NCBI RefSeq assembly: GCF_019649055.1
Contig: NW_026570251.1
Span: 1,116,001 to 1,180,000 of the forward strand
Reading direction: 5' to 3'
Length of the DNA stretch: 64,000 nt
Origin: Paramacrobiotus metropolitanus
Lineage: Eukaryota; Tardigrada; Eutardigrada; Parachela; Macrobiotidae
Part shown: positions 12,401-47,975 of the stretch, piece by piece
How positions within the stretch are numbered: the first letter of the stretch is position 1
Layout: each line of letters starts with the position of its first letter
Position numbers and translations under genes: made by a program
The notes under the pieces: generated by a model
Databases searched by the model: none
What the model was told of the DNA's origin: nothing
Seen by the model: only the letters and a program-made list of their open reading frames with translations

Positions 12401-15400
12401 CCGATAGTTGTTGACCGTTGTAGAAGCGCACATTGGCACACCATACTAGTATTATGTGGTGACTGAGTTACTGTACTACATAATGCATTAAAATTAATTA
12501 ATGAATCCTTTCTCACTTTTTCCTGTAAATTTTTGATATGCAGTTGCAGTATTCGTAGGGCAGATTCAATCCACGCACAGGTTTGTTGCAAGCAGAGTAT
12601 TGACAGTTGTCAGTTGTCATTATAAAAATAAAATTAATAATTACCAAAAATAACTGTTTGGTAAAAGTTTTCAAATGCCTGCTTTAAGAGTGCTTTTGTC
12701 TTTATTGGGCAAAGGCGCAAAAGCCATCAGAATAATAAAAAGTCCATTCGCTGATTCGCGTATAAGTACTAACAACTAACAAGTACTTACTATAAGTATA
12801 ATGTACTAAGGCCTTGTCCCGAATTCGAAGCGAATCTTGTTGCGATACAGCAACTCACACCTCGCGAGGTGGCTTCGCATACCGTATCTGTGGGCGTGGC
12901 CACTGCATACAGCCAGCTCGTGCGGTTGAGCAACCGTACCAAAGCTAGATTCGCTTCGAATGCGAGACGAGGCCTAACAGTAACATGTAACAAGTACTGT
13001 ACTTAGTAGTTAGTACATACTAATTAAAATGTTCTTTACCGCTGCTAGCGAACAGGGAACGTAGTGCCGTGCGCATGGTTAACTACAGAATTCCACTGGT
13101 GAACGTAATAACAGCGCGCTAGTCACAGTGCGCATCCCCCGCAATCCCTGTTCCGTGTTGTCTGCGCCTGAACTTAGTTCGAAAATACTCTTTGTTCTGA
13201 TTTTCCGATTTCCGTGTGCTTTTCGTGTCTGGCTCGTCTCTTTCCACTTTTCCGACTTTGAAAACATTCCCATTTAATTCTGATCCCCTAGATTCTAGTC
13301 TCAACGATTTTTTTTACATTTCTGGCCATTGCTGGACGATAGCCCGTGTGTGTATGTGGCCTGTTGGTGGTGGATGTGTTGTGAGTGTTCTGTGTCGGAT
13401 CACTGATGGAGACCACGACGGCGACCCCGTCGCACTCCTTTGTCGTGCTGCGTTCGCGCATTATCCCGCGCACGTCGCCCGCGGAGATGGAGGGGGTGCT
13501 GCCCAATGTAGCGGCGCAGAGAAAGGTTCGTGGGTGATCAATTTGCGCTGGGTTGGGATGAGATAGGATCATAGGACAGTGGAACAAGCACGAACCCTGT
13601 GGCGAACTGGCTGGTGCTTTCCGTCTTCGCAGTTGATCAGTGTTGCGCGTTGCGGTCTCGTCCGCTTAATTGACGATGGGAAATCGTGGGTTGGGATTTT
13701 ATAAGTTGGTCGTTGAGGTGGGAGGGTGGTCCAAGCACGAAGAAAGTTGGTTTGTCTGCGGGATGCGGGAACCTGGCTGGTCCTAGCAAATCGCTCTGAG
13801 TGCCGTTTTTCGATCATCCGTCCGTATTTTTTTTAATATAAATGTATTAATAATCCATCATCTTGGGTTGATTGTCACTTTTCAGCAGGCATTGAGATTT
13901 TCGTCGCTTAGATGGTTCTCAAAACTCAACAGAGTATTACTGAGTGTTTAGTCTTTAGTGTGCAGACAGTTTAGTTTAGTCTTTAGTGTGCAGACAGTTT
14001 AGTCCAGAAAAGTGAGAAAACTGAATTTACTATCAGAATCCTGAAAATAGTGTGGAAAAAATACAGTCACGTTGGAAAAAAAATTAAATAAATATTTCTG
14101 CATCATACAATTAAATCTAGCTATTAATATTGACCCTTTACAATAAAAAAAAATTATTGATTGAGACATCGAGTCCCATTGATTTCTCCTTGCATAAATC
14201 ATAGATGACATTTCACATTTGTATATTTTTGGGTAAAGCCAGCTAATAAATGGCAGCGCATATTATGGGCAATTTAAACCTGGATTGGCGGTAAAATTTC
14301 TTTTTTTGGTATCAGGAATAATTATTTATTTGTGAAGAAATTAACTTCTAATTCTAGAAAAATCTACTGTAATAATTTCCAGTAATTTTATCAGGCTGCG
14401 CGTTGACTGTAAGCCATTATTTTTATTTATTTTACCGTATTTCTTGTTTTCCGCAGTTGAACGAAGGCAATGAGCGTCGTGCCGCCGACGACCGCGAGCA
14501 CTCGTTGGAGATCGAGGCCCCACCCATGCGCCCGGCCCCCACCCACTCCCCGGCGCCCTCCGCCGCCTCCAGCGTGCGCTCCGCCACGCCCTCCACCCTG
14601 TCGACGCTCTCGGCGGCCAGCGGCAGTCAGGGCCGCCCCCCGGGGTTCGCGCGCCGCACCGGCGGAGTGCCGCCGCGTCCCGAGGCCCCCAAACTCAGCG
14701 CCAACTCCACGGCCAAGGCACAGCTGCGTCGCTGCATCGTCAGCAGCTGCCGGCACTACAATAAACCGCAGCACGGGGTCTTCCCCTTCCCGCCGCTGGA
14801 GGGCCGCGCCGCCGACCGCAACCGCTGGATGTCGGCGATTAATAACAGCGCGGCGCGGAATCACGCCGTTAGCGGGGCGTATCTGCTGCATGACAACACG
14901 GCCGGGGTGTGTCGGGAGCATTTTCGGGAGACGGATGTGCTGCCGGATGGGACGCTGCGCAGGGGCTCCGCGCCGGTGCGCTTTGACGTCCGCCCGGGCT
15001 ACGGTAAGACGGCCAGTACGAAAACTTACGTTCTGCGAAAATTATGGTGTTTTAACCATATTTCTGAAATTGTCGGTTTTAATTTTTATTGATTTGATTC
15101 AAATTGATTGATTTTACGGATTTGTTTTGGATTGGACTGTTGGTGGTATTTCTTCTTTGTAAATGTTTTGGTGTAAAGTATCGTATCTTGTTTTGTTACT
15201 ATTATTTTCAACTAAAAAAATATTTGCAAACGAATTTCGAAAATTTTGCGGCTTATTTGTAAATGTTTTGGTGTAAAGTATCGTATCTTGTTTTGTTATT
15301 ATTTACAACTAAAAAAATATTTGCAAACGAATTTCGAAAATTTTGCGGCTCATTTCGGTGTGCTCATTTTTCGCTTTTTGCTGTTCATGTACACATTGCA

Positions 15401-36500: not shown

Positions 36501-37410
36501 GTGTGTTTAGTGATATTGTAGCCGGTCCGATGCGGAAGCTGTGCGTGTTGAAGCCTGAAACTATACTTGAAGTTACATAATTTGGCGGTCTTTTCGGTGT
36601 ATGTTTTGGCGATGTAGAGCGCAGATCGACGTCGGTGGGTATTGCACAACTTTTCAGTGTCTTTTTGAATGCTGTTTTCGTAGTTATTACAACAAGTAAA
36701 AGCAGAAAGGAAAAGCTAGCTAAAACGACATTTGTTGCGTGCAGAGAATGCCATAGCTTTATGATTACGCTATCTTCTTGATTCTGGTCCTGGGTTTCCG
36801 TTTTTGGCAGCATTTCAGATACCGTCAAATGGTGTCTGTTAGCTTGCCGAGTACGGAAATCATGAAGGTGTTTTCACCAGTCCACGAATTAACGATAAGC
36901 AGATGTTATTTAGTTAGTATCTGGATTCTGGAATATTGCAAAGTACTGTAAGCAATAAAATATCGTACGATATTCCAGATCTACTGTACATCATCATAGA
37001 TTTCCTGTGAACGGTTAAACAGGATGACTATGTTTTTTACTTAAAACAGGATGACTATGTACAATGTAGGACTAAATGGTCGCATAGCCCCATACCCAGC
37101 ATTCTGTACGCAAGCGGTGCAGTGAACTTGTACGAAACGGATATTTTGAACTCAGTCGTAAAGTGCACTGCGCTGCATTCGTACTGAATGTGGAGATGTT
37201 GGGTATGCGACCATTTTGTCCTAAGCTGTACTATACGTTTTTTACTGTTATACTCGGAGCTCCTCAAAAAAAAATCAATCAGACAACAAAAACAATGTTT
37301 TCTGCTGTTACTCATTACTGTGCACAGCGCTGCACTGTGTACGCTAGTAATCATCGTACAAGGAGTACTATACATTGCGTTCGTTAATAATTCCATTATC
37401 AATAGTTTAA
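33600..37410. repeat. Copy 2 (left part) of the large dispersed repeat family
   Basis: A segment at 33940-34090 (TTTTGAAACATGTTTCTACGG, CTCGCAAAGGTC, CTGCAGAGTA) recurs at 59220-59390. A segment at 35580-35760 recurs at about 58150-58330. The hairpin module is at 36795-36870. The copy's terminal module is missing here but present at 47.47-47.97 kb, on the far side of the retroelement array, so the array interrupts this copy. Two related segments at 35328-35395 and 35490-35560 form a local tandem repeat. Confidence 0.6.
35761..36066 (-). pseudogene. Degraded coding stretch inside repeat copy 2
   Basis: An open frame of 101 codons, continuing past one stop into ALAGIVTFHFDSGGK and LLEEKTWPVDKL down to about 35640. 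The opposite strand at 36000-36256 also reads protein-like (EELRTMPATKPNLFMDYM), so the true strand is uncertain. No family recognised. Confidence 0.3.
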
Positions 37411-37600: not shown

Positions 37601-37716
37601 CTAAAAAAAATTCCAGTAAAACTAATTTTCCAGAAATACAGTACGTGGCTTCTATAGTAAATGTGTTATGCCAAAGTATCCTACGCCGAATACGTATCAT
37701 TAATCATATTAGTTAT

Positions 37717-38449
37717 ATGAATACTAAACATCTCTAGCAGGTCTACGGCTTCTCCTGTTAGACCGCGGTAATCTCCGCTTCTGCTCATCCGATCTTCATG
37801 CTTCAAAATGTTTTGAAAACCTCTCAGTGCGGCGGGTGATCTAAGACCAGTCGTTGTTTGCTGAATTCAGAACCGCTAATCCAGTGGTCATTCAAAGGCT
37901 TGTTGCCATGGATGCCATAGGCCTAACAAAGTCTGGTCTGGTGCCACGGGCATTAAATTTGAATAAAGAAAACCTTGTGGGCTTAGTGAAGGAATCACTT
38001 CAGACACTTCACTGTCCACAGTAGCTTATTAGAATTTGGAGAGTTTAGCAGAACAAGCGTAAAATCAGCAGCCGAGCCACAAACCAATCAAACTTTAGGG
38101 GCAAAAGGTCAATACTCCAAAAACTAGGCTTTAGATGTTCTGACTTAAAAGAAAGAAGTGAAATTGCTAACTTAACCGATAATGCCAGTAATCGCTAACA
38201 AAAAAAGGCAAATCACTGACAAAAAAAAGACAAATTTTAGCGGATGCAGCCGCAAGTTGACTGCAGAGCATTCCTGTCATCCGTTAAATCTGATAAACTG
38301 AACAAGATCTGTTGTCTTTATCAAAAACCAATTGTCTTCAAACAAAATAATAACTGCTGTTGCTTCCTCGAATCCACTGCAACCTTTGAATTTTAAACTG
38401 ATTATTTACCTAGTCGTAAGCCAATATTCATCCGTGCTCAGCTTGTTAT
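37717..38449 (+). mobile_element. Short DIRS-derived element A1 (non-autonomous)
   Basis: Its first about 200 bp (ATGAATACTAAACATCTC onward) match the 5' end of the full DIRS-like element at 42356, including a conserved GTTGCCATGGATGCCATAG box. Its end, CCAATATTCATCCGTGCTCA then GCTTGTTAT, matches that element's 3' end. No coding capacity remains. It abuts the next copy directly, with no host DNA between. Confidence 0.8.
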
Positions 38450-39090
38450 ATGAATACTAAACATCTCTTGCAGGTTTTTGGCCTTTCCTGTTAGACCGCG
38501 GTAATCTCCGCTTCTACTCGTCCAATTTGCGCGCTTTAAAATGTTTTAGAAACCTTTCAGTTTGGCGGGTGATCTAAGGCCAGTCTTGTTTTGCAATCAT
38601 CAAGTTATTAAGGCCAGTGGTCACTGCAAAGCTTGTTACCATGGATGCCATAGAGCTAACATGGCTGGCCGGTTACCACGGGCACATTAAATACTGCACT
38701 CAAACAACAAGAAAAGCTTCGTCTTCGCGTCTGCGTTTCTTCTTTTCACGGGCTGAGTGAACAAGTCATTTCGGCCACTGCACTGGCTAAAGCAGCTTAT
38801 TAATTTGGTAATTTCAGAATCCGGTCTCTGCATTTGCTAGGAGTAGCTTAATAATTCAGAAATTTCAATAGAGTAAAAAACCTAGCAGGCGAGCAAAAAA
38901 CAATACAAACTCTGGGTGTAAAAGGTCAATAACGCAGTACGCTCGCCGCGGACAACCATCTTGAACACTTGTCCGGCTTTGTCATTCTGACTTTTCGGGA
39001 AACTGGATTACATGCTAAGCAATATGCTGCACATGAAATACAAAGTTTTAAAATCGTCGTAAGCCAATATTCATCCGTGCTCAGCTTGTT
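38450..39090 (+). mobile_element. Short DIRS-derived element A2 (non-autonomous)
   Basis: Same 5' start (ATGAATACTAAACATCTC) and same 3' end (CCAATATTCATCCGTGCTCA) as A1, in the same orientation, with a diverged middle. Its right end joins the first member of the second family at 39091 (ACTACATCCGTAAC). Confidence 0.8.
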
Positions 39091-39435
39091 AACTACATCC
39101 GTAACAACCATGACAGAGTAAGGTTAAAAAACCTATGTTTGGGAGAACGGGTAGGCCGATTTCAACGCGGTCAAGTGCGCCAGAACCGCTGCAACAACGC
39201 GGTGGATGTTACGCTATTACCGAGACGATGCGCCTCGAGGGGAAAAAAGGGGACCGGAAAGGAAAGTTGTTACCATGGGCCTCCATAGACATACATGGAC
39301 AAGTTGTTCCCATGTGTGTAAATGACACGACACGCCTCGGCCAGCGGCCTCGATGCGAACAAAAACAAAAATAATTAATCACCAAAAGCCGACGCCGATA
39401 ATTGGTTACGGATGTAGTCCTCCGTAAACTGTTAT
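39091..39435 (+). mobile_element. Family B element, copy B1 (most diverged)
   Basis: Begins AACTACATCCGTAAC and ends GGTTACGGATGTAG, near-perfect inverted ends. The inside carries the family body (TTTGGGAGAACGGGTAGGCC and a TTACCATGGGCCTCCATAG box) with many changes. The junction to the next copy spans 39404-39449. Confidence 0.75.
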
Positions 39436-39808
39436 CTACATCCGTAACCACGTATACACGATTGATAATGTAGCCAATGTTTGGGCGAACGCCTGAACTG
39501 ATTTCGACGCGGCCAAGTGCGTTAGAATCGTCTCAACGGTGCGAAGGTTCATACCCTATTCCGGAATCGATACGCCCCAGAAGGGAAGGAGCAACCCCAA
39601 AAAACAAACTGTTGCCATGGGCCCCCATAGAAAAACATGGGCAAATGCATTGTCTGTTCGCGGACCGTTCAGGAAAACCGAGGCAGACCGCAGCCTTAGG
39701 CATCGGCACGTTACAAAATATTGAAAATTCAGGAAACATATGCAAAAATTAATCGCAGTCAATCCCACCAGCCGACCAGCGTGTTCGATATACTGTACCT
39801 CGTATTTT
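39436..39808 (+). mobile_element. Family B element, copy B2 (3' truncated)
   Basis: Begins CTACATCCGTAACCACGTAT and carries the body TGTTTGGGCGAACGCCTGAA, but stops after CAGTCAATCCCACCAG and a short unique tail, without the minisatellite and without a right arm. The next copy starts immediately. An open frame of 91 codons (39477-39752) corresponds to the small frames in the other copies. Confidence 0.75.
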
Positions 39809-40580
39809 ATCTACATCCGTAACCACGTATACACGATTGATAATGTCGCTAATGTTTGGGCGAACGGCTGAACCGATTTCGACGCGGCCAAGTGCGTTAA
39901 ATTCATCTCAACGGCGCGAATGTTCTTACGCTATTGCGCCATCGATACGCCCCAAAAGGGAAGGAGTAGCCCCAAAAAACAAATTGTTGCCATGGGCCCC
40001 CATAGATATACATGGTAAATACATTGTCTGTTTGCGGGCCGTTCGGAAAAACCGAGACAGACCGCGGCCTTCGGCATCGGCACGTTACAAAATACTGAAA
40101 ATTTAAGAAACATGTGCAAAAATTAATCGCAGTCAATCCCACCAGCGTGATTGGTATACCTCGGATTCTTTCATATACGATATTTCTTAGATATCTTAGG
40201 TTTCTTAAGTTTTCTTAGGTTTCCTAGGTTTCTTAGGTTTTCTTAGGTATTCTCAGGTTTCTTAGGTATTCTTAGGTTTCTCACGTTTCTTAAGTTTCCT
40301 AGATTTCTTGGGTTTCTTTGCTTTCTTAGGTTTCTTAGGCTTTCTTAGGGTTTCTCAAGTTTTCTTAGATTTTCTCTTTCTTAATTTTCTTAGTTTTCTT
40401 AGCGGCTGAGACCAATGCAATCAACCGTTGCGAAGTGTGCATTGCGTAACAAACTTGCGCCGCAAAATTTGCGCCGAAATACCCGGGTCTAACCACGCGT
40501 TTCCGGGTCCGACCAAAGAATCCGGCCGACCAAGAGTTTTTCTCAGTCCTGTTACAGGTAAACGGATGTTTAATAATTGT
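39809..40580 (+). mobile_element. Family B element, copy B3 (type 1, long tail)
   Basis: Starts TATCTACATCCGTAACCACG. Contains a frame of 89 codons (39837-40106, MSLMFGRTAEPISTRPSAL) shared with B4, B5 and B6, then a TTCTTAGGTTT tract (about 40185-40400), then AGCGGCTGAGACCAATGCAA and a unique tail. Its right arm is degenerate (ACGGATGT near 40563). B3 and B5 share the same tail type. Confidence 0.8.
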
Positions 40581-41115
40581 TATCTACATCCGTAACCACG
40601 TATACACGATTGATAATGTCGCTAATGTTTGGGCGAACGGCTGAACCGATTTCGACGCGGCCAAGTGCGCTAGATTCGTCTCAACGGCGCGAATGTTCTT
40701 ACGTTATTGCGCCATCGATACGCCCCAACGGGGAAGCAGAACCCCCCAAAAACAAACTGTTGCCATGGGCCCCCATAGGCTAACATAAGCTAATGCGGAA
40801 TGACAGAGACAGACCGCGCCCTTCGGCATCGCTTCGCTAATAATTCATGGAAAACTGTGAAAAACGCTACAAAATAAAGGTTGCTTATATTTCTTCGGAG
40901 TCTTAAGTTTTCTTAGGTTTCTTAGTCTTCTTAGACTTCTTAAATTTTCTCAGAATTATTCTCACATTCTTAGTTTTCTTGGGTTTCTTAGGGTTTCTTA
41001 GGTTACTTGTTTTGCTCAAATTATATTTCCAGTTTTCTTGAGCGGCTGAAATCAACCTTCGTCGAACTAGTGCACGACACAAAATTTGGTGCGGATGTAG
41101 ATACCGTAAACTGGT
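40581..41115 (+). mobile_element. Family B element, copy B4 (type 2)
   Basis: Same start and body as B3 but another second half: CTTCGGCATCGCTTCGCTAA, CTACAAAATAAAG, a short TTCTTAGG tract, then AGCGGCTGAAATCAACCTTC. It ends with the intact right arm CGGATGTAGATA at 41092-41103. B4 and B6 share this type. Confidence 0.8.
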
Positions 41116-41808
41116 TATCTACATCCGTAACCACGTATACACGATTGATAATGTCGCTAATGTTTGGGCGAACGGCTGAACCGATTTCGACGCGGCCAAG
41201 TGCGTTAAATTCGTCTCAACGGCGCGAATGTTCTTACGCTATTGCGCCATCGATACGCCCCAAAAGGGAAGGAGTAGCCCCAAAAAACAAATTGTTGCCA
41301 TGGGCCCCAATAGATATACATGGTAAATACATTGTCTGTTTGCGGGCCGTTCGGAAAAACCGAGACAGACCGCGGCCTTCGGCATCGGCACGTTACAAAA
41401 TACTGAAAATTTAAGAAACATGTGCAAAATTAATCGCAGTCAATCCCACCAGCGTGATTGGTATACCTCGGATTCTTTCATATACGATATTTCTTAGATA
41501 TCTTAGGTTTCTTAAGTTTTCTTAGGTTTCCTAGGTTTCTTAGGTTTTCTTAGGTATTCTCAGGTTTCTTAGGTATTCTTAGGTTTCTCACGTTTCTTAA
41601 GTTTCCTAGATTTCTTGGGTTTCTTTGCTTTCTTAGGTTTCTTAGGCTTTCTTAGGGTTTCTCAAGTTTTCTTAGATTTTCTCTTTCTTAATTTTCTTAG
41701 TTTTCTTAGCGGCTGGGACCAATGCAATCAACCGTTGCGAAGTGTGCATTGCGTAACAAACTTGCGCCGCAAAAGTTTGTGTACGGATGTAGATCCCGTA
41801 AACTGGTT
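41116..41808 (+). mobile_element. Family B element, copy B5 (type 1)
   Basis: Nearly identical to B3 through the minisatellite (about 41485-41710) and the CAATGCAATCAACCGTTGCG box, then a shorter tail ending in the right arm TACGGATGTAGAT at 41782-41794. The open frame 41007-41414 runs across the junction from B4 into B5. Confidence 0.8.
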
Positions 41809-42355
41809 ATCTACATCCGTAACCACGTATACACGATTGATAATGTCGCTAATGTTTGGGCGAACGGCTGAACCGATTTCGACGCGGCCAAGTGCGCTAG
41901 ATTCGTCTCAACGGCGCGAATGTTCTTACGTTATTGCGCCATCGATACGCCCCAACGGGGAAGCAGAACCCCCCAAAAACAAACTGTTGCCATGGGCCCC
42001 CATAGGCTAACATAAGCTAATGCGGAATGACAGAGGCAGACCGCGCCCTTCGGCATCGCGTCGCTAATAATTCATGTAAAACTGTGAAAAACGCTACAAA
42101 ATAAAGATTAGATAAAATAAAGCTTAAATAAAGATCTTAGGTTTCTTAGTTTTCTTAGACTTCTCAGGTTTTCTCAGAATTATTCTCGCATTCTTAGTTT
42201 TCTTAGGTTTTCTTAGGTTTCTTAGGGTTTGTTAGGTTACTACGTTTTCCTCAGATTTATTATATTTCCAGTTTTCTTGAGCGGCCGGAATCAACCTTCG
42301 TCGAAACTAGTGTACGACACGAAATTTGGTGCGGATGTAGATACCGTAAACTGGT
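41809..42355 (+). mobile_element. Family B element, copy B6 (type 2), abutting the DIRS-like element
   Basis: Nearly identical to B4. Ends with CGGATGTAGATA (42332-42343) and the spacer CCGTAAACTGGT (42344-42355), after which the DIRS-like element starts instead of another family B copy. B3+B4 and B5+B6 together form a dimer repeated in tandem. Confidence 0.8.
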
Positions 42356-42691
42356 TATATGAATACTAATTATCTGTGCCAGACCTTCGGCCCCTCTCCT
42401 TTGAGGCAAAGGATCTCGGCTTCTACTTTTCCAATTTTGCCACTTTAAAGTGCATAAGAATGCTCTCAGCGCAGCGGTGGATCTAAGATGGTCAACCTTT
42501 TGCTAAAATCATTTGGCTGGGTCCAATGGTCAGCCATAAGCTTGTTACCATGGACGCGATAAGAAATGAAAAAGATTCTTGCTGGAGAATCTGAGTATAA
42601 CGAGGTCAAAACGGCTGACCCTTTGCTGTTATGAATGGATCGAAAGCGGATTCCGGACCTAAAGCGGATCCAGACCTATCTGCACTCAAGC

Positions 42692-42700
42692 CTATATATA
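42692..42700 (+). promoter_or_regulatory. TATA box of the DIRS-like element
   Basis: CTATATATAG about 105 bases before the ORF1 start codon at 42804, followed at about 30 bases by CAACCTGTTTTCAGTTAG, a plausible start region. Position and sequence fit a polymerase II promoter for the genomic RNA. Confidence 0.5.
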
Positions 42701-42803
42701 GCAGCGACCACGCACCAACCTGTTTTCAGTTAGTTCTAAACTTTTGCCTGTTCGGCTTCTTTTCGTGAGGTTTTTCTGATACTGTGTAATAAGTAGTAGT
42801 AAA

Positions 42804-44051
42804 ATGGTTCAGACACGAGAAGAACTGGAAGCACAAATGTGTGATGAGTTAAGGGGCATTTTGAAGGGTTTAAACTTAATCACCACCGGCAACAAAGACG
42901 TTCTGATTAAGCGTGTCCTTGATCACCAAGCGGATTCATCCACCAACAACAGCACCAGCAAGCAGCCAGAGCTTGAACTATCCTGCGGAAGTGTTGAGGG
43001 ATTAGCCGAGATAGTAGGCCTGGGTGAAGCCGCTATAACCATCCTGAAGAATCAGCGATTCACGACCGTCGAGAAGGTCCTCACCTTGTCAAAAGAAGAT
43101 CTCTGGGAGCCGCCCCTCAATGCCATTCCTCTCTGCGACCGCAAAGATTTGCTGACCTACATCAATAATTCCGGCCGCAACGGAGACTCTGTCATCATCG
43201 TTCCCCCGCTAAAGGTCACCAAAGCCGATGCCGCAGAAATCAAACCGGACACACGCCGCAACATCCTGCCAGATGACCTTGACCTCCCATCACAACGAAG
43301 CAGTCCAACCCGTTTCTTTGGCCCAGCGAGAATTGGTGAGTGTGACCTAAGAGAAGTTTTAAATTCTAAAGGTGACTTGTCCAAAATTGCTCGTAATTTA
43401 CCGCGACCGCATACTGTTGTGTATTCCCGTGCGCAAGCAGATAAGAAGAAAACGGTTGGTGCTCTGGATCTCACTTACGAAGAGTTTATGAGCGGTTCAC
43501 AGATGCTGATAAGTCAATTGAGTACGATGCCGGGTCACTCTGAAACTCTCAGAGAATATGCTGAGTATATTGCGTTTCTGTCGAGCAAACGCCGCCATTA
43601 CGATCCGCTGGCTATTTTAGAATTTGATGATGCCTTCCGGCAGTACGCCGATTTTGCACACTGCTCGTTAAATGATTTCAGTGCGTGCGCTTATCTAATT
43701 CATGACAGTTTTCATGCGGGCACATTGTTGACTACAGGCGGGTATCGTGGTAGAGGAAATCGTGGTGGTCATGGTGGTTATGGTGGTTACGGTGGGTATG
43801 GTGGCTATCGTGGTAATGGTGGTCCTCATCGGTTTCGCGGGCGTGGCCGTGGGTTCAACCACGGCCGGGGTCATGGTTACGACATGCCGCTCGGATGTTG
43901 TTTTGCCTTCAACGAAGGACACTGCTATTACGGGGAGAGTCAGTGCGGATACGAACACACCTGCGCCAAGTGTCGCCGGAGAGGGCACAACATGCAAGAT
44001 TGCCCACGCAACCAGGACGGAAACGGACGTGGAGCCAAGAGCGGCGGGTAG
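42804..44051 (+). CDS. ORF1 of the DIRS-like element: Gag-like protein with SAP-like and zinc-finger domains
   Basis: A 415-residue protein. Residues 5-40 (ELEAQMCDELRGILKGLNL ... KRVLDH) resemble a SAP DNA-binding helix pair. Residues about 62-115 resemble a helical SAM- or HhH-like fold. Residues about 225-310 are a helical core, probably the capsid-like part. Residues 311-360 are a Gly/Arg/Tyr-rich tract rich in RG and GGYGG. The end has a CCCH-like finger (C-x7-C-x6-C-x3-H within CFAFNEGHCYYGESQCGYEH) and a CCHC knuckle (CAKCRRRGHNMQDC, 387-400). It should bind nucleic acid and package the element's RNA; that role is inferred from position and fingers. Confidence 0.8.
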   Translation: MVQTREELEAQMCDELRGILKGLNLITTGNKDVLIKRVLDHQADSSTNNSTSKQPELELSCGSVEGLAEIVGLGEAAITILKNQRFTTVEKVLTLSKEDLWEPPLNAIPLCDRKDLLTYINNSGRNGDSVIIVPPLKVTKADAAEIKPDTRRNILPDDLDLPSQRSSPTRFFGPARIGECDLREVLNSKGDLSKIARNLPRPHTVVYSRAQADKKKTVGALDLTYEEFMSGSQMLISQLSTMPGHSETLREYAEYIAFLSSKRRHYDPLAILEFDDAFRQYADFAHCSLNDFSACAYLIHDSFHAGTLLTTGGYRGRGNRGGHGGYGGYGGYGGYRGNGGPHRFRGRGRGFNHGRGHGYDMPLGCCFAFNEGHCYYGESQCGYEHTCAKCRRRGHNMQDCPRNQDGNGRGAKSGG

Positions 44052-44055
44052 TGAG

Positions 44056-45984
44056 AGTTGTTGGGTCGCGAACCATGGTTTGTGTGTCAAAAATGCTGTT
44101 GAAAATGGCAATGTTTTGGGTACAGATAATCATTTTACTGCCAAATCAATCCATGTATTTTCTGAAGTGAATCATAACGCGAGTAATTTTATTGGTTGTG
44201 GCGAAACTGTTGTTATTAATAAAAATGTTGAAAATTGTTCAGACGGTTTGGCTGATGAAGAAGTTCGACAATGTAGTCCTTTATCACGTAAACTGGTTGA
44301 GTGAAGAAAATATTTAAAAGATGATCCAGATCGGGAATTCATTTTAGATGGTATTGCACACGGTTTTCGTTTAGTGGATGACGCCGTTAATGTTTCCGCA
44401 GCCGAATGTGAGAATTACAATAGCGCACTGTCACCAACAAATAAAGGTTTTCTTGACGAAATTTTTCGTGATGAATTGAATTCTGGTAAAATAAGTCGGC
44501 AGTCGTTCAAACCAGTCAGGGTACATGCAATCGGCGCTGTGCCAAAGAAAGACTCGGACATTCCGCGTCCGATTACCGATTGCAGCAGGCCACATTGTGA
44601 CTCACTGAACTCCTACATGAACCCGGATCAGTTTTCCTTTGCAAGTATCGACGATGCCATTGCGCAAAGTGCAGCCGGTTGTTATTACGGTATTGTGGAC
44701 ATAAAAAATGCATACAGGCAGGTACCGGTTTTTCCTGCCCACCGGCAATTTCAGGGATTTAAATGGGAACTTGACGGGGTCACGTCATACTTTATCGATA
44801 ACTGTTTGTGTTTTGGCTTAGCATGTGGCCCCGCAATTTTCCATCGCATTTCATGCGCAATTGCCCGTATTGCGAGATTGATGGGCATAATTATTGTTCC
44901 TTACCTGGATGATTTTTTAATTATTGCGCTTACCTGGTATCTTTGCGTAACTGCACAAAATAAGTTGATTGAATTATTGATTGCTCTCGGTTTTCCAATT
45001 AACTGGAAGAAAGTTGTTCCACCAACTCAACGGGTACAATTTCTCGGTTTGATTTTGGACTCTAACAATGAGATGATTGAACTCCCTTATGAAAAAATTG
45101 TTAAAATTGTGAAACAATGCGAGTCTATACTTTTGTTTGAGAAGGTCACGAAAAAAGAGCTGCAGCAACTAGTTGGTCACTTGTGTTTTGCGTCTCGCGC
45201 CGTTCGTGGCGCTCGCACCTTTTCTCGTTTGTTTATTGACTTTATGAATACTTTAAGGGAAATTCACCACCGAGCAAGAATAACAGCACCCGTAAGACAT
45301 GAGTTGTTGTGGTGGATTAAGGTAGCGCCAATGCTTAATGGTATTTTCTCTTCCAAATTCGGGAAGGAACGTCGCCGTGTGTTTGTCAATACTGATGCAT
45401 CATTGGGTGGGTTCGGCGCTGTTATGGGAAATAGTTGGGTAGCTGGGGCCTGGGACGATAGTTTTGTTCCTGCAGATATGTTAATAAAACGATGCTGGTT
45501 GTTAGCCCCCCATGTGCACAACAGTTTAAAAAATAACATCAATTTTCTAGAGCTGATTGCAGCCTGTGCAGCAGTGTTGGTGTGGTGTCAGGTATTCCGT
45601 GGATGCGAAGTGGTCATTGTCAGTGACAATGCATCAACGGTAAGTTTTATAAACCGTGGAACGACTGCAAACATTCATGCCCTCAAATGGTTAAAGTTGT
45701 TATTTCATGCCTCGTGTGACTACGACTTTGTTGTTACCGCTAGGCATGTCGCAGGTGTTGATAACGATATTGCTGATGCGCTCAGCAGATTGTCGGAGGG
45801 CGAAACACAGTTAGCACGGTTCCTGTCAATTTATGGCGCGCCACATAGTCATGTCGGCGTGTATAAAGAGTGTTTTTACAGGTATCCGAACGCTATTACT
45901 TCAAAAAACTTTGAAGAGATTACAGCTTTCAGCTTATGCGCCAAAGTCGCTGAAAACGCGGAAAGTACAGTGGGAGAAATATGA
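44056..45984 (+). CDS. ORF2 of the DIRS-like element: reverse transcriptase and RNase H
   Basis: The open part runs 44374-45984 (536 codons from the ATG at 44374). Protein-like sequence continues upstream in the same frame (KYLKDDPDREFILDGI and before) through a TGA at 44302-44304 to about 44056, overlapping or touching ORF1. The TGA is therefore probably a nonsense change. Counting from 44374, the RT active site is YLDD at 177-180. RNase H has D341 (NTDAS), E393 (FLELIA), D418 (SDNAST) and D468 (IADALSR), so all four catalytic acids are present. This enzyme copies element RNA to DNA. Confidence 0.9.
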
Positions 45985-46878
45985 AACGTTTTGCGCCAAG
46001 TTCCGTCTGATCGCGGTCCCAGCAGAGCCACGGACGCTTGCTTTGTATGTTGCGTATTTGTCAAAAACGATGGAATACTCCTCGGTTGCAAATTATCTCG
46101 CCGCGGTTGCAAGTTTACACCATAATTCTGACCATCCCGCACCGGATTTGCAACATTACTCTGTGCAGCAAGCACTAGCCGGTTTAAAGCGGTTGCGGGA
46201 AGAACACCCGAAACGAAAAGCAGGCGTGAGTGTTGAACATTTGTTATTGATTTATTCTCATTTGAACCTGGTTCCTGCGCATTGTAGAGAAACTTTTTGG
46301 TGCGCTTGTCTTTTCGCCTTTTACACCCTGTTGCGGCGAAGTAATTTGTTTTGGTCCAAAGATAATAAATCGTTTTTGCGCGCTCAGTCCGTGAAGTCAT
46401 CAGGTACAATATTGATGGTTACTGTGCCCGTTTTGAAAACGGCGAGGTTTATGGGGCAAACAATAACTGTTCCTGTGAAAAGTGTCCCAAATTCTGTGTT
46501 GTGTCCAGTGAAAGCACTCCTGGCGATGAACGCCAGGATAACTTTATCACCGTCAGACCCGCTTTTATCGTACAAAAATCTGAAAGGTCACATAGTTCCA
46601 CTGACGGCGCAAAAATTTACTGAGTATCTACGAACTATTTTGAAGTTTGTAAATCTGCCGTATGGTTTATTTTCTCCCCACTCTTCCGGAGAGGCGGGGC
46701 GACATTCGGTATGTCTAGTGGTTCAACGGCAGAAGAGCTAAAAGCTCAAGGTGGTTGGCGCAGTGCATGTTTTGAAAAATATGTGGAACGTGACGCAGCG
46801 CTGCAAAAACGCTTCGTTATGAAGGTGTCTGGTGGTGTTTCTTCTGGGTTGCTTGGGCATGTAAAACCCGTCAAATAA
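45833..46878 (+). pseudogene. ORF3 of the DIRS-like element: tyrosine recombinase, frameshifted at its second catalytic box
   Basis: The frame starts at an ATG at 45833, overlapping ORF2 by 152 bases. It shows a helical core-binding domain (around KRLQLSAYAPKSLKTRKVQW) and the catalytic domain with the first arginine in YTLLRRSN (R168 or R169). At about 46680, in the H-x-x-R box, the frame moves: SPHS is followed by a different frame that carries the rest of that box, a KAQGGWRS segment in place of the third box, and the KYVERD tyrosine, up to a TAA at 46876. A single lost base explains this. The enzyme would integrate circular DNA without cutting a target duplication. Confidence 0.85.
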
Positions 46879-47391
46879 AACGAAGTTGTTCATGTTGGCA
46901 GACTTTGTGTGTTTAGGTCAAGATGTTGTTGTTCTTGCGAAAATTGTTGCCGTCTGTTGTACATGCATAGATCATGAGTTGAACATCCGGTGCACAACAC
47001 CGCGCCCAAATAAATATCCCATGCTCTTTGTACAACATCGGTTTCCGTTTGTCCTCGACGTTTGACCGTAGTTATGCATACAGTTCTGGGTCAAGTTGTG
47101 TTAGAACAGTAGAAATACCTGTGCTCCCACAAAACAATAAGCACAATAAGTAAGCACAATGCAAAGTAAAAATTCATGTTAAAATGTCAGTCATCAGCGC
47201 AAAATGCAACTTACGTACAGTATAATATAGACGGTCCTGGTTCCTATTAACTTACAAATATATACAGTCACTACAGCGTGTCAAAATAATTATTGCTAAA
47301 TACACGTACGGGTTTCGCAATATTATAACAGTTTGTAAGCAACCAAAATTCAACACATCCTTGAAATTACTAATTCTTATAGTCATCAGCC
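46879..47391 (+). other. 3' untranslated region of the DIRS-like element
   Basis: Non-coding AT-rich sequence between the recombinase stop and the right end. I could not find a copy of the left end here, so an A1/B1-A2-B2 split-repeat layout is not visible. Confidence 0.5.
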
Positions 47392-47414
47392 AATATTCAT
47401 CCGTGCTCGGCTTG

Positions 47415-47975
47415 TAATTAATATTAATTATGCCAAAATGGCAGCGCATCGCTCAGTTTCGTTGTATTTATGCGCATTAGCACAGGATAGGCTTGCACGT
47501 TGCTGCGCGCCGGTACGAGTTTGTATGCAGATTGCATAGCAACTAAGTGTCCGAACGTTTCGCCAGCGGTGCTTACAATCGTAATGATCATTAGATTAAT
47601 TATTATTACCGAAAAAATTTATAATTTACTTAAGTACTTTAGTACGAGTACTTGGTTACTTCATTTTAGCGAGTGCTGAGAAGCACACGTGCTATTTCAC
47701 GAGCAACCGACGGACACGTGGTGAATCGTGACAGTACCGTATGATGGTTGTCGCCATTTGCGTAAATGTACCTGCAGTTTGCTGTGCACTCGCGATTCAG
47801 ACTATGCGTCTGCCTTTTCAAGTTATGTAGAATTCGTAATTGATGAACCATTTTTTGCTGTCTTTCGGTTACTTATTAGTCCTGGCCTTTAATTTTCAGG
47901 AAAAGTGGGGAAAACTTTAAGCAGCCAGCTGACTGTAAATGCGGAGGTAAGTCGGCTTAAATGTATGGCAAGCCC
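47415..47975. repeat. Copy 2 (right part) of the large dispersed repeat family
   Basis: Carries the terminal module (TATGCAGATTGCATAGCAAC at 47524, AACTTTAAGCAGCCAGCTGA at 47916, GAGGTAAGTCGGC) otherwise seen at 30.9-31.3, 53.6-53.9 and 61.6-61.9 kb. It completes the copy interrupted at about 37.7 kb. Confidence 0.55.

Follow-up and report, generated by a model that had tools for sequence, protein, structure and literature searches.

A 64,000-bp stretch of the Paramacrobiotus metropolitanus genome (hereafter the window; part of a 169.8-Mb assembly of 533 contigs) contains, at 37712-47414, an array of nine DNA units lying head to tail in one orientation: D, D, T2, T, T, T, T, T, and D'. The array is real and is not unique, with similar arrays present at many loci of the genome. 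These arrays are probably polar stacks, in which a founder unit arrives first and further units are added one by one at the left end by tyrosine-recombinase-type recombination, together with segmental duplication and fusion.

The proposed scheme starts with the entry of a founder into host DNA, at a short target resembling T[A/T]-R-T[A/T]; the founders would be F, D', and probably further units whose right ends are of D type. Units of other families, first T and then T2, D, Tb, and T again, would follow singly and with unchanged orientation, inserting at an inner junction or at the GTTAT in the left end of a unit already there. Each insertion would regenerate an identical site, so the stack would stay open for more. 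The reaction may be site-specific recombination of circular unit DNA, catalyzed in trans by a tyrosine recombinase, perhaps one from the PAT/Ngaro-type elements of this genome, and homologous recombination would duplicate, fuse, and trim blocks of units. The data suggest an animal mobile-DNA system that grows by setting new units at the ends of old ones. If this is right, site-specific cassette accretion extends beyond bacteria, animal tyrosine-recombinase elements can build ordered, growing arrays, and the poorly known integration step of DIRS/Ngaro-type elements becomes testable, in one genome with natural junctions in the hundreds, many targets in host DNA, and at least one case of a single-unit difference.

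Units and junctions in the window and across the genome

All units of the window array lie on the forward strand. The leftmost D unit (37712-38444; 733 bp) has its D left end at 37712 and a D right end running to 38444; non-unit DNA lies to its left, and it is 99.0% identical to a D unit of the C30 array. The second D unit (38445-39087; 643 bp) has exact junctions on both sides. The T2 unit (39088-39430; 344 bp, with its final base common to the next unit) has the left end GTTAACTACATCCG and the right end CGGATGTAGTCCTCCGTAAACTG and shares 99.7% identity with a T2 in L017, on a different contig. Then come the T units at 39431-39805 and 39806-40578, both with degenerate right ends, and those at 40579-41113, 41114-41805, and 41806-42353, the last of which adjoins the founder-type D' unit. 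D' itself is in two parts: the left (42354-42567) aligns to the D' units of L017, L021, L026, L027, L028, L031, and L007, and the right (47076-47414) ends in GCTCGGCTTG, after which the DNA is again non-unit. No other DNA was recognized between the nine units, and their ends confirm an earlier note on this DNA, made from the sequence alone, which had described nine elements without host DNA between them.

The joins between units read ..CCGT..(C)TTG/ACTG, followed across the boundary by GTTAT.., and carry short inverted arms; the left side is degenerate at two of the eight internal junctions (39805/39806 and 40578/40579). The arms that the earlier note had placed at four junctions are present there: perfect 12-bp arms CGGATGTAGATA/TATCTACATCCG at a T-T junction (41092-41127), 13-bp arms at a second T-T junction (41782-41821), 14-bp arms at the T2-T junction (39404-39449), and AATATTCAT/ATGAATACT at the D-D junction (within 38421-38460). 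The T units at 39806 and 41114 are near-copies (661/664 identical) and those at 40579 and 41806 match at 504/528 positions; part of the window array arose by segmental duplication.

Arms of this kind bound units across the genome. Patterns for the T left end, D right end, and T right end matched at 110, 368, and 156 places, respectively, more than expected by chance, and the reversed controls gave 0 matches. Twenty-four stretches were fetched, most chosen for clustered T left ends and hence a biased sample; they held 214 units, the longest chain having 34 (L004, L005, L008, and L009 overlap L027 and L017 and were excluded from unit counts). At 177 of 207 right ends in this sample the left end of the next unit lay at offset 0. 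Among the T right-end matches listed with their letters (of 164; read by eye), 71 of 72 ran into another unit, with variant left ends in six of the 71. Among the D right-end matches listed (of 453), 59 of 100 exact ends led into a unit and 41 had no recognized unit after them; all 100, these 41 included, had T[A/T] next. D-D joins are under-counted here because the D pattern disfavors A at its last position, and both right-end patterns under-sample host flanks with A at that place. Units with D-type right ends thus often adjoin non-unit DNA, and T units hardly ever do. The arrays vary in content and order between loci.

Several further features of the units and their surroundings were seen. 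A degenerate 9-10-bp repeat (TTTCTTAGG-like) occurs in T units of the window at 40158-40420, 40890-41030, 41465-41730, and 42130-42260. An internal box, (A)GCTTGTTACCATGG / CAAATTGTTGCCATGG-like, was found by eye in both D and T units (37897-37919, 38629-38652, 42539-42559, and 39980-40000), outside which the two families are barely similar. An inverted repeat with 71-nt arms, 73% complementary, lies immediately left of the array at 37059-37231. Farther away, an open reading frame (ORF) at 14376-15092 putatively encodes what we take, by eye, to be a THAP-type zinc finger.

Polarity and histories of neighboring units

The order of units is polar. In the fetched, cluster-biased sample, F or D' units with a left neighbor in chains of at least two (n = 18) had T or Tb as that neighbor in all 18 cases, and 16 of them closed their chain on the right; the within-array shuffle maximum was 9, and 0 of 20,000 shuffles reached 16. 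Non-unit sequence lies beyond a recognized right end in 15 of the 16 (one of these has about 8 bases before the next array starts); the one in L019 lacks a recognized right end. T2 was followed by T or Tb 32 times, compared with a shuffle mean of 13.7, in an order test whose 184 neighbor pairs include nine units without a recognized right end before the next left end. The suggestion in the earlier note that elements inserted at previous junctions is supported as to precise junction insertion, but placement does not look random: in the fetched arrays, F or D' is usually rightmost, with T or Tb directly to its left.

A genome-wide search with the left side of F gave 84 places (3 in the reversed control), sorted as 70 F, 10 D', and 4 unclear. 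To the left of the 70 F lay T in 33 cases, host DNA in 36, F/D' in 1, and D in 0; to the left of the 10 D' lay host DNA in 7 and T, D, and F/D' in 1 each. The target of lone F was read from 10 of 13 F-type stretches with a right end, excluding L049 (D after it), L050 (odd right end), and L059 (doubled left end). Nine of the ten fit T[A/T/G]-[A/G]-T[A/T] without target duplication, and L065 does not; no uninterrupted host site for lone F was found, and a 3-bp target duplication was considered. Two observations concern F at other kinds of site. In L017 (about C5:1817892-1818340, forward strand), a lone F lies inside an apparent T-T2 junction of opposite orientation, with parts of the junction on both sides. 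F left ends lie in clusters of two or three in L059 (C139:232650-233500) and L057 (C70:585370-586000), where no more than one right end was read, a picture that would suit entry or duplication of F at its own left end.

On a tree of 21 F rows (14 lone F and 7 T-left, with T as the left neighbor; L007 and L031, which are not F, and the doubled L059 were dropped), the two kinds are intermixed: the T-left label changes 7 times, no fewer than in shuffles, and 5 of these changes are forced by well supported branches. With the three further rows, there are 8 changes, of which 6 are forced. T was therefore gained, or lost, repeatedly beside different F units; since lone F and F with T are equally common, gain makes the simpler reading.

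The histories of neighboring units are mostly independent. Among 169 contiguous pairs, 11 pair matches reached ≥96% on both sides, 9 of them within one array and 2, both T2-T, between arrays. Neighbor distances were uncorrelated for T2-T (n = 29, r 0.11, p 0.24), T-D (n = 16, r -0.09), D-T2 (n = 19, r 0.03), and D-D (n = 26, r 0.02), while a control that compared the two 300-bp ends within single units gave r 0.44 and 0.52 (sets of 30 units each, ≥500 bp, the two parts overlapping in shorter units). Of 206 units tested, 192 had a qualifying hit and 149 of these had their nearest relative in another array, some of which is expected because the other arrays jointly hold more units. The possibility raised in the earlier note, that the array is one duplicated composite unit found identically elsewhere, was rejected on the pair comparison.

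These data bear on how the stacks could have formed otherwise. Multimeric circles or reverse-transcribed concatemers might deliver a ready-made string beside the founder in one event, a route favored by the recurring order D-T2-T, the many long arrays, and the rarity of T-F alone at host DNA (L001 only, in the fetched sample). Strings rarely recur between arrays, however (the two T2-T pairs among 169), and an exact single-unit difference in C30, described below, also speaks against a single event, leaving this route unlikely. Arrays might also have grown chiefly as a satellite with higher-order repeats does, by tandem duplication or unequal crossing-over; in favor of this are the 5.04-kb tandem duplication in C71, the duplicated block in C30, and the T-T-T-T alternation of the window with its 661/664 identity. 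As the main engine it is nonetheless improbable: most units have their closest relative in another array, only nine neighbor-pair matches lie within an array, neighbor histories are mostly uncorrelated, and duplication accounts neither for lone F units nor for their intermixing with F bearing T.

Movement of the whole array as a block, as one composite transposon, finds some support in the correlation of T-F neighbor distances (n = 8, r 0.35, p 0.02), but is very unlikely and was rejected as largely refuted, given the pair comparison, the abundance of lone F (36 of 70 with host DNA on the left, ten read on both sides), the mixture of F with and without T on the tree, and the varied content and order of arrays. 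An assembly artefact, to which the position of some arrays at contig ends (C3 and C15) might point, is scarcely credible when the median difference to the closest relative is 5-10% in most families, orders vary by locus, and several loci have non-unit flanks on both sides.

Arms, exact unit changes, and the nested retrotransposon

In 81 of 95 T-class units, the left and right arms of the unit are perfectly reverse-complementary to each other, compared with a mean of 41 and a maximum of 56 in shuffles. The base beside the arm covaries with its partner (T/A 57, A/T 36, and A/A 2), and CTAAATCC pairs with GGATTTAG in two of the three units bearing CTAAATCC. As the units are related, this pairing amounts to few independent events. 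Arms that pair inside one unit, and not with those of its neighbor, are what the joining of a unit's own two ends into a circle would need. The T2-T junction at 39404-39449, folded as single-stranded DNA, gave -14.6 kcal/mol (z -6.9). The arms of D are shorter (7-9 bp). The design of a tyrosine-recombinase site, which the earlier note had read from the junctions, agrees with the inverted arms and asymmetric spacer but departs from the usual pattern in spacer length, 12-18 bp rather than 6-8 bp.

One exact difference of a single unit was seen. The two copies of a duplicated block in C30 differ by a 524-bp D unit, which one copy has and the other lacks exactly, and their flanks match at 729/729 aligned bases (one 3-base gap) and 262/263.

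Several observations weigh against stacking from the left by site-specific recombination. D' can follow D (1 of 10), so that "never after D" is true of F only; D closes the arrays in L026 and L010; and D' is internal in L026 and, truncated, precedes D in C30. A rule restricting array ends to F and D' was accordingly dropped, given these closing D units and the 41 of 100 listed D right ends without a unit after them. Neighbor distances are weakly correlated for D-T (n = 14, r 0.26, p 0.03) as well as for T-F, and repeated loss of T could also give the mixed labels on the F tree. In C30, two Tb units of one copy, adjoining the difference, are fused in the other, and homologous recombination could make use of about 20 bp of common end sequence; a single-unit gap flanked by >98% identity on each side was seen only here among nine candidate gains or losses, the remainder being less exact or following from duplications. 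The spacer between the arms exceeds the 6-8 bp typical of tyrosine recombinases in the available part of one account (PMC3212892). D-type and mixed junctions, D-D included, fold no better than shuffles, and the arms are unlike in 13 of 197 classified units (11 with T left and D right, and 2 the reverse). One such T-left/D-right unit (1172-1181 bp; one copy 1054) has spread despite its non-matching arms, occurring twice in C71, once in C32, and three times in L019 at 97-99% identity, with D or T2 before it and T or T2 after it. Taken with the unlike arms and the folding result, this indicates that matched arms may not be needed.

The enzyme and its substrate are the conjectural part of the polar-stack reading. 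None of the circles that we infer was observed, and no recombinase-coding element with its own D or T ends was found among the recombinase loci examined. The genome has at least 129 matches to one tyrosine recombinase. A scan of 12 + 5 recombinase loci gave a unit end within the limits in the window's stretch alone, besides three T-right-like matches with 6 mismatches; the remaining places, among the matches listed, were compared with unit ends by eye only. Likewise, an integrase beside a primary attachment site was sought in 206 units, and no recombinase coding was found except in the nested element of the window. The accretion of circular elements at junctions put forward in the earlier note is supported as to growth by repeated precise insertion rather than by composite copies, with circles and a recombinase as its presumed means.

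That nested element lies within the last unit of the window array, which is a gene-less unit of about 553 bp (42354-42567 plus 47076-47414) split by a 4,508-bp insert. The insert (42568-47075, forward strand) is a split-direct-repeat retrotransposon of PAT/Ngaro type, present as A1-ORFs-B1 and cleanly inserted; the uninterrupted site, ..GATAAGAAATGCATAC.. / ..CATGGACGCGATAAGAAATGCATAC.., is found in the D' units of L017 and L028. Because D' is uninterrupted at this site elsewhere, the coding element is a passenger within a gene-less unit, and the "full DIRS-like element" with which the earlier note had closed the array was rejected. The description of all units as retroelements fits the nested element; for the short units it is unproven, as comparison of 206 units yielded no coding remnant (best E 0.14, the nested element apart).

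Three ORFs were assigned in the insert, all on the forward strand. The first (42804-44051) is Gag-like, with a SAP domain and, by eye, a zinc knuckle (CAKCRRRGHNMQDC). The second (44305-45984) encodes a reverse transcriptase/RNase H, matching Pfam RVT_1 at E 1e-13 and RT_RNaseH with a score below its cut-off (E 0.031). The third (45815-46741) is tyrosine-recombinase-like, with a frame broken near its 3' end; this frame had no PF00589 match by Pfam and no match to solved structures at E≤0.01. A relative in C99 (L035), 98% identical to the nested element, carries B1-A2-B2, its A2 matching the window's A1, while the window copy has A1 and B1 without A2-B2. The recombinase of the C99 copy falls below the cut-off of the Pfam recombinase profile (E 0.038), its homologues P0122 and P0126 carry PF00589, and it shows R..HSFR..GGW..Y, which by eye we take to be the tyrosine-recombinase motif. 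The probable identity of the nested element's recombinase rests on these homologues and this motif.

No methyltransferase is among the Pfam matches obtained at E≤0.05 with the window's three ORFs, which may point to the Ngaro type. No common 9-mers, direct or inverted, link 42354-42803 with 46854-47415, and DIRS1-like inverted terminal repeats with an internal complementary region were not found there. The B1/A2 join of the C99 copy reads CCGTAGTTAT followed by GAAAAAGATT, with one letter different in L036 and L037; the own junction of this genome's PAT/Ngaro-type elements is thus likewise CCGT..GTTAT. At the left ends of A2 in L035, L036, L037, L042, and L045, a small hairpin-like palindrome (AGATTCT..AGAATCT and variants) was seen by eye directly after GTTAT or TTAT.

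Comparison with known systems

The nested element belongs with PAT and Ngaro, described as split-direct-repeat retrotransposons in the part of PMC4157794 available. It shares with them a reverse transcriptase and a recombinase, and in the C99 relative the arrangement A1..B1-A2-B2; it differs in that the window copy has no A2-B2, no methyltransferase was found by Pfam, and it rides as a passenger in D'. For the arrays themselves, one likeness is DIRS-1 of Dictyostelium centromeres, a tyrosine-recombinase element that is said to target its own copies and is thought to integrate as circles; in the text available, its targeting has no apparent sequence preference, and the element makes up the content of the centromeres (PMC5633606). 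The tardigrade arrays would share with it tyrosine-recombinase-type insertion at existing copies, by way of circles. Unlike the DIRS-1 clusters, as far as that text describes them, arrays of the window type consist of gene-less units with exact end-to-end joins and an ordered polarity. Cryptons have also been proposed to move as circles, according to the available part of PMC3212892. TATE of Leishmania, another tyrosine-recombinase retroelement, forms tandem clusters in telomeric repeats at one relative position; these are clusters of a coding element, and the accessible text describes no ordered array of several gene-less families (PMC6681497). Such arrays are not described in the portions available of PMC4157794, PMC11071193, PMC6681497, PMC3212892, or PMC5633606. 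A search mainly of the openly accessible literature found no description of ordered arrays that combine a founder with several families of gene-less units.

Cassandra is a terminal-repeat retrotransposon in miniature of plants, a single family with common long terminal repeats. Like the tardigrade units, its gene-less elements occur in long tandem arrays, in the part of the source available (PMC7215508). The tardigrade arrays differ from those described there in mixing families joined at short recombination-type sites.

In bacteria, integron cassettes and tandem integrative elements arise by site-specific insertion of circular units beside resident sites, giving polar stacks of one orientation from which units can be excised. 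The tardigrade arrays resemble them in having stacked units of one orientation, polarity, and insertion at a junction site, presumably also of circles. They differ in that the platform has no integrase gene, no genes were found in the units, the site sequences are other ones, and the host is an animal. It is possible, and we suggest it tentatively, that these arrays form an integron-like cassette system in an animal, with gene-less T and T2 units that have no host entry of their own, single insertion in one orientation to the left of a founder, and exact loss of single units. If so, T and T2 would be parasitic cassettes that exploit the attachment site of another mobile element.

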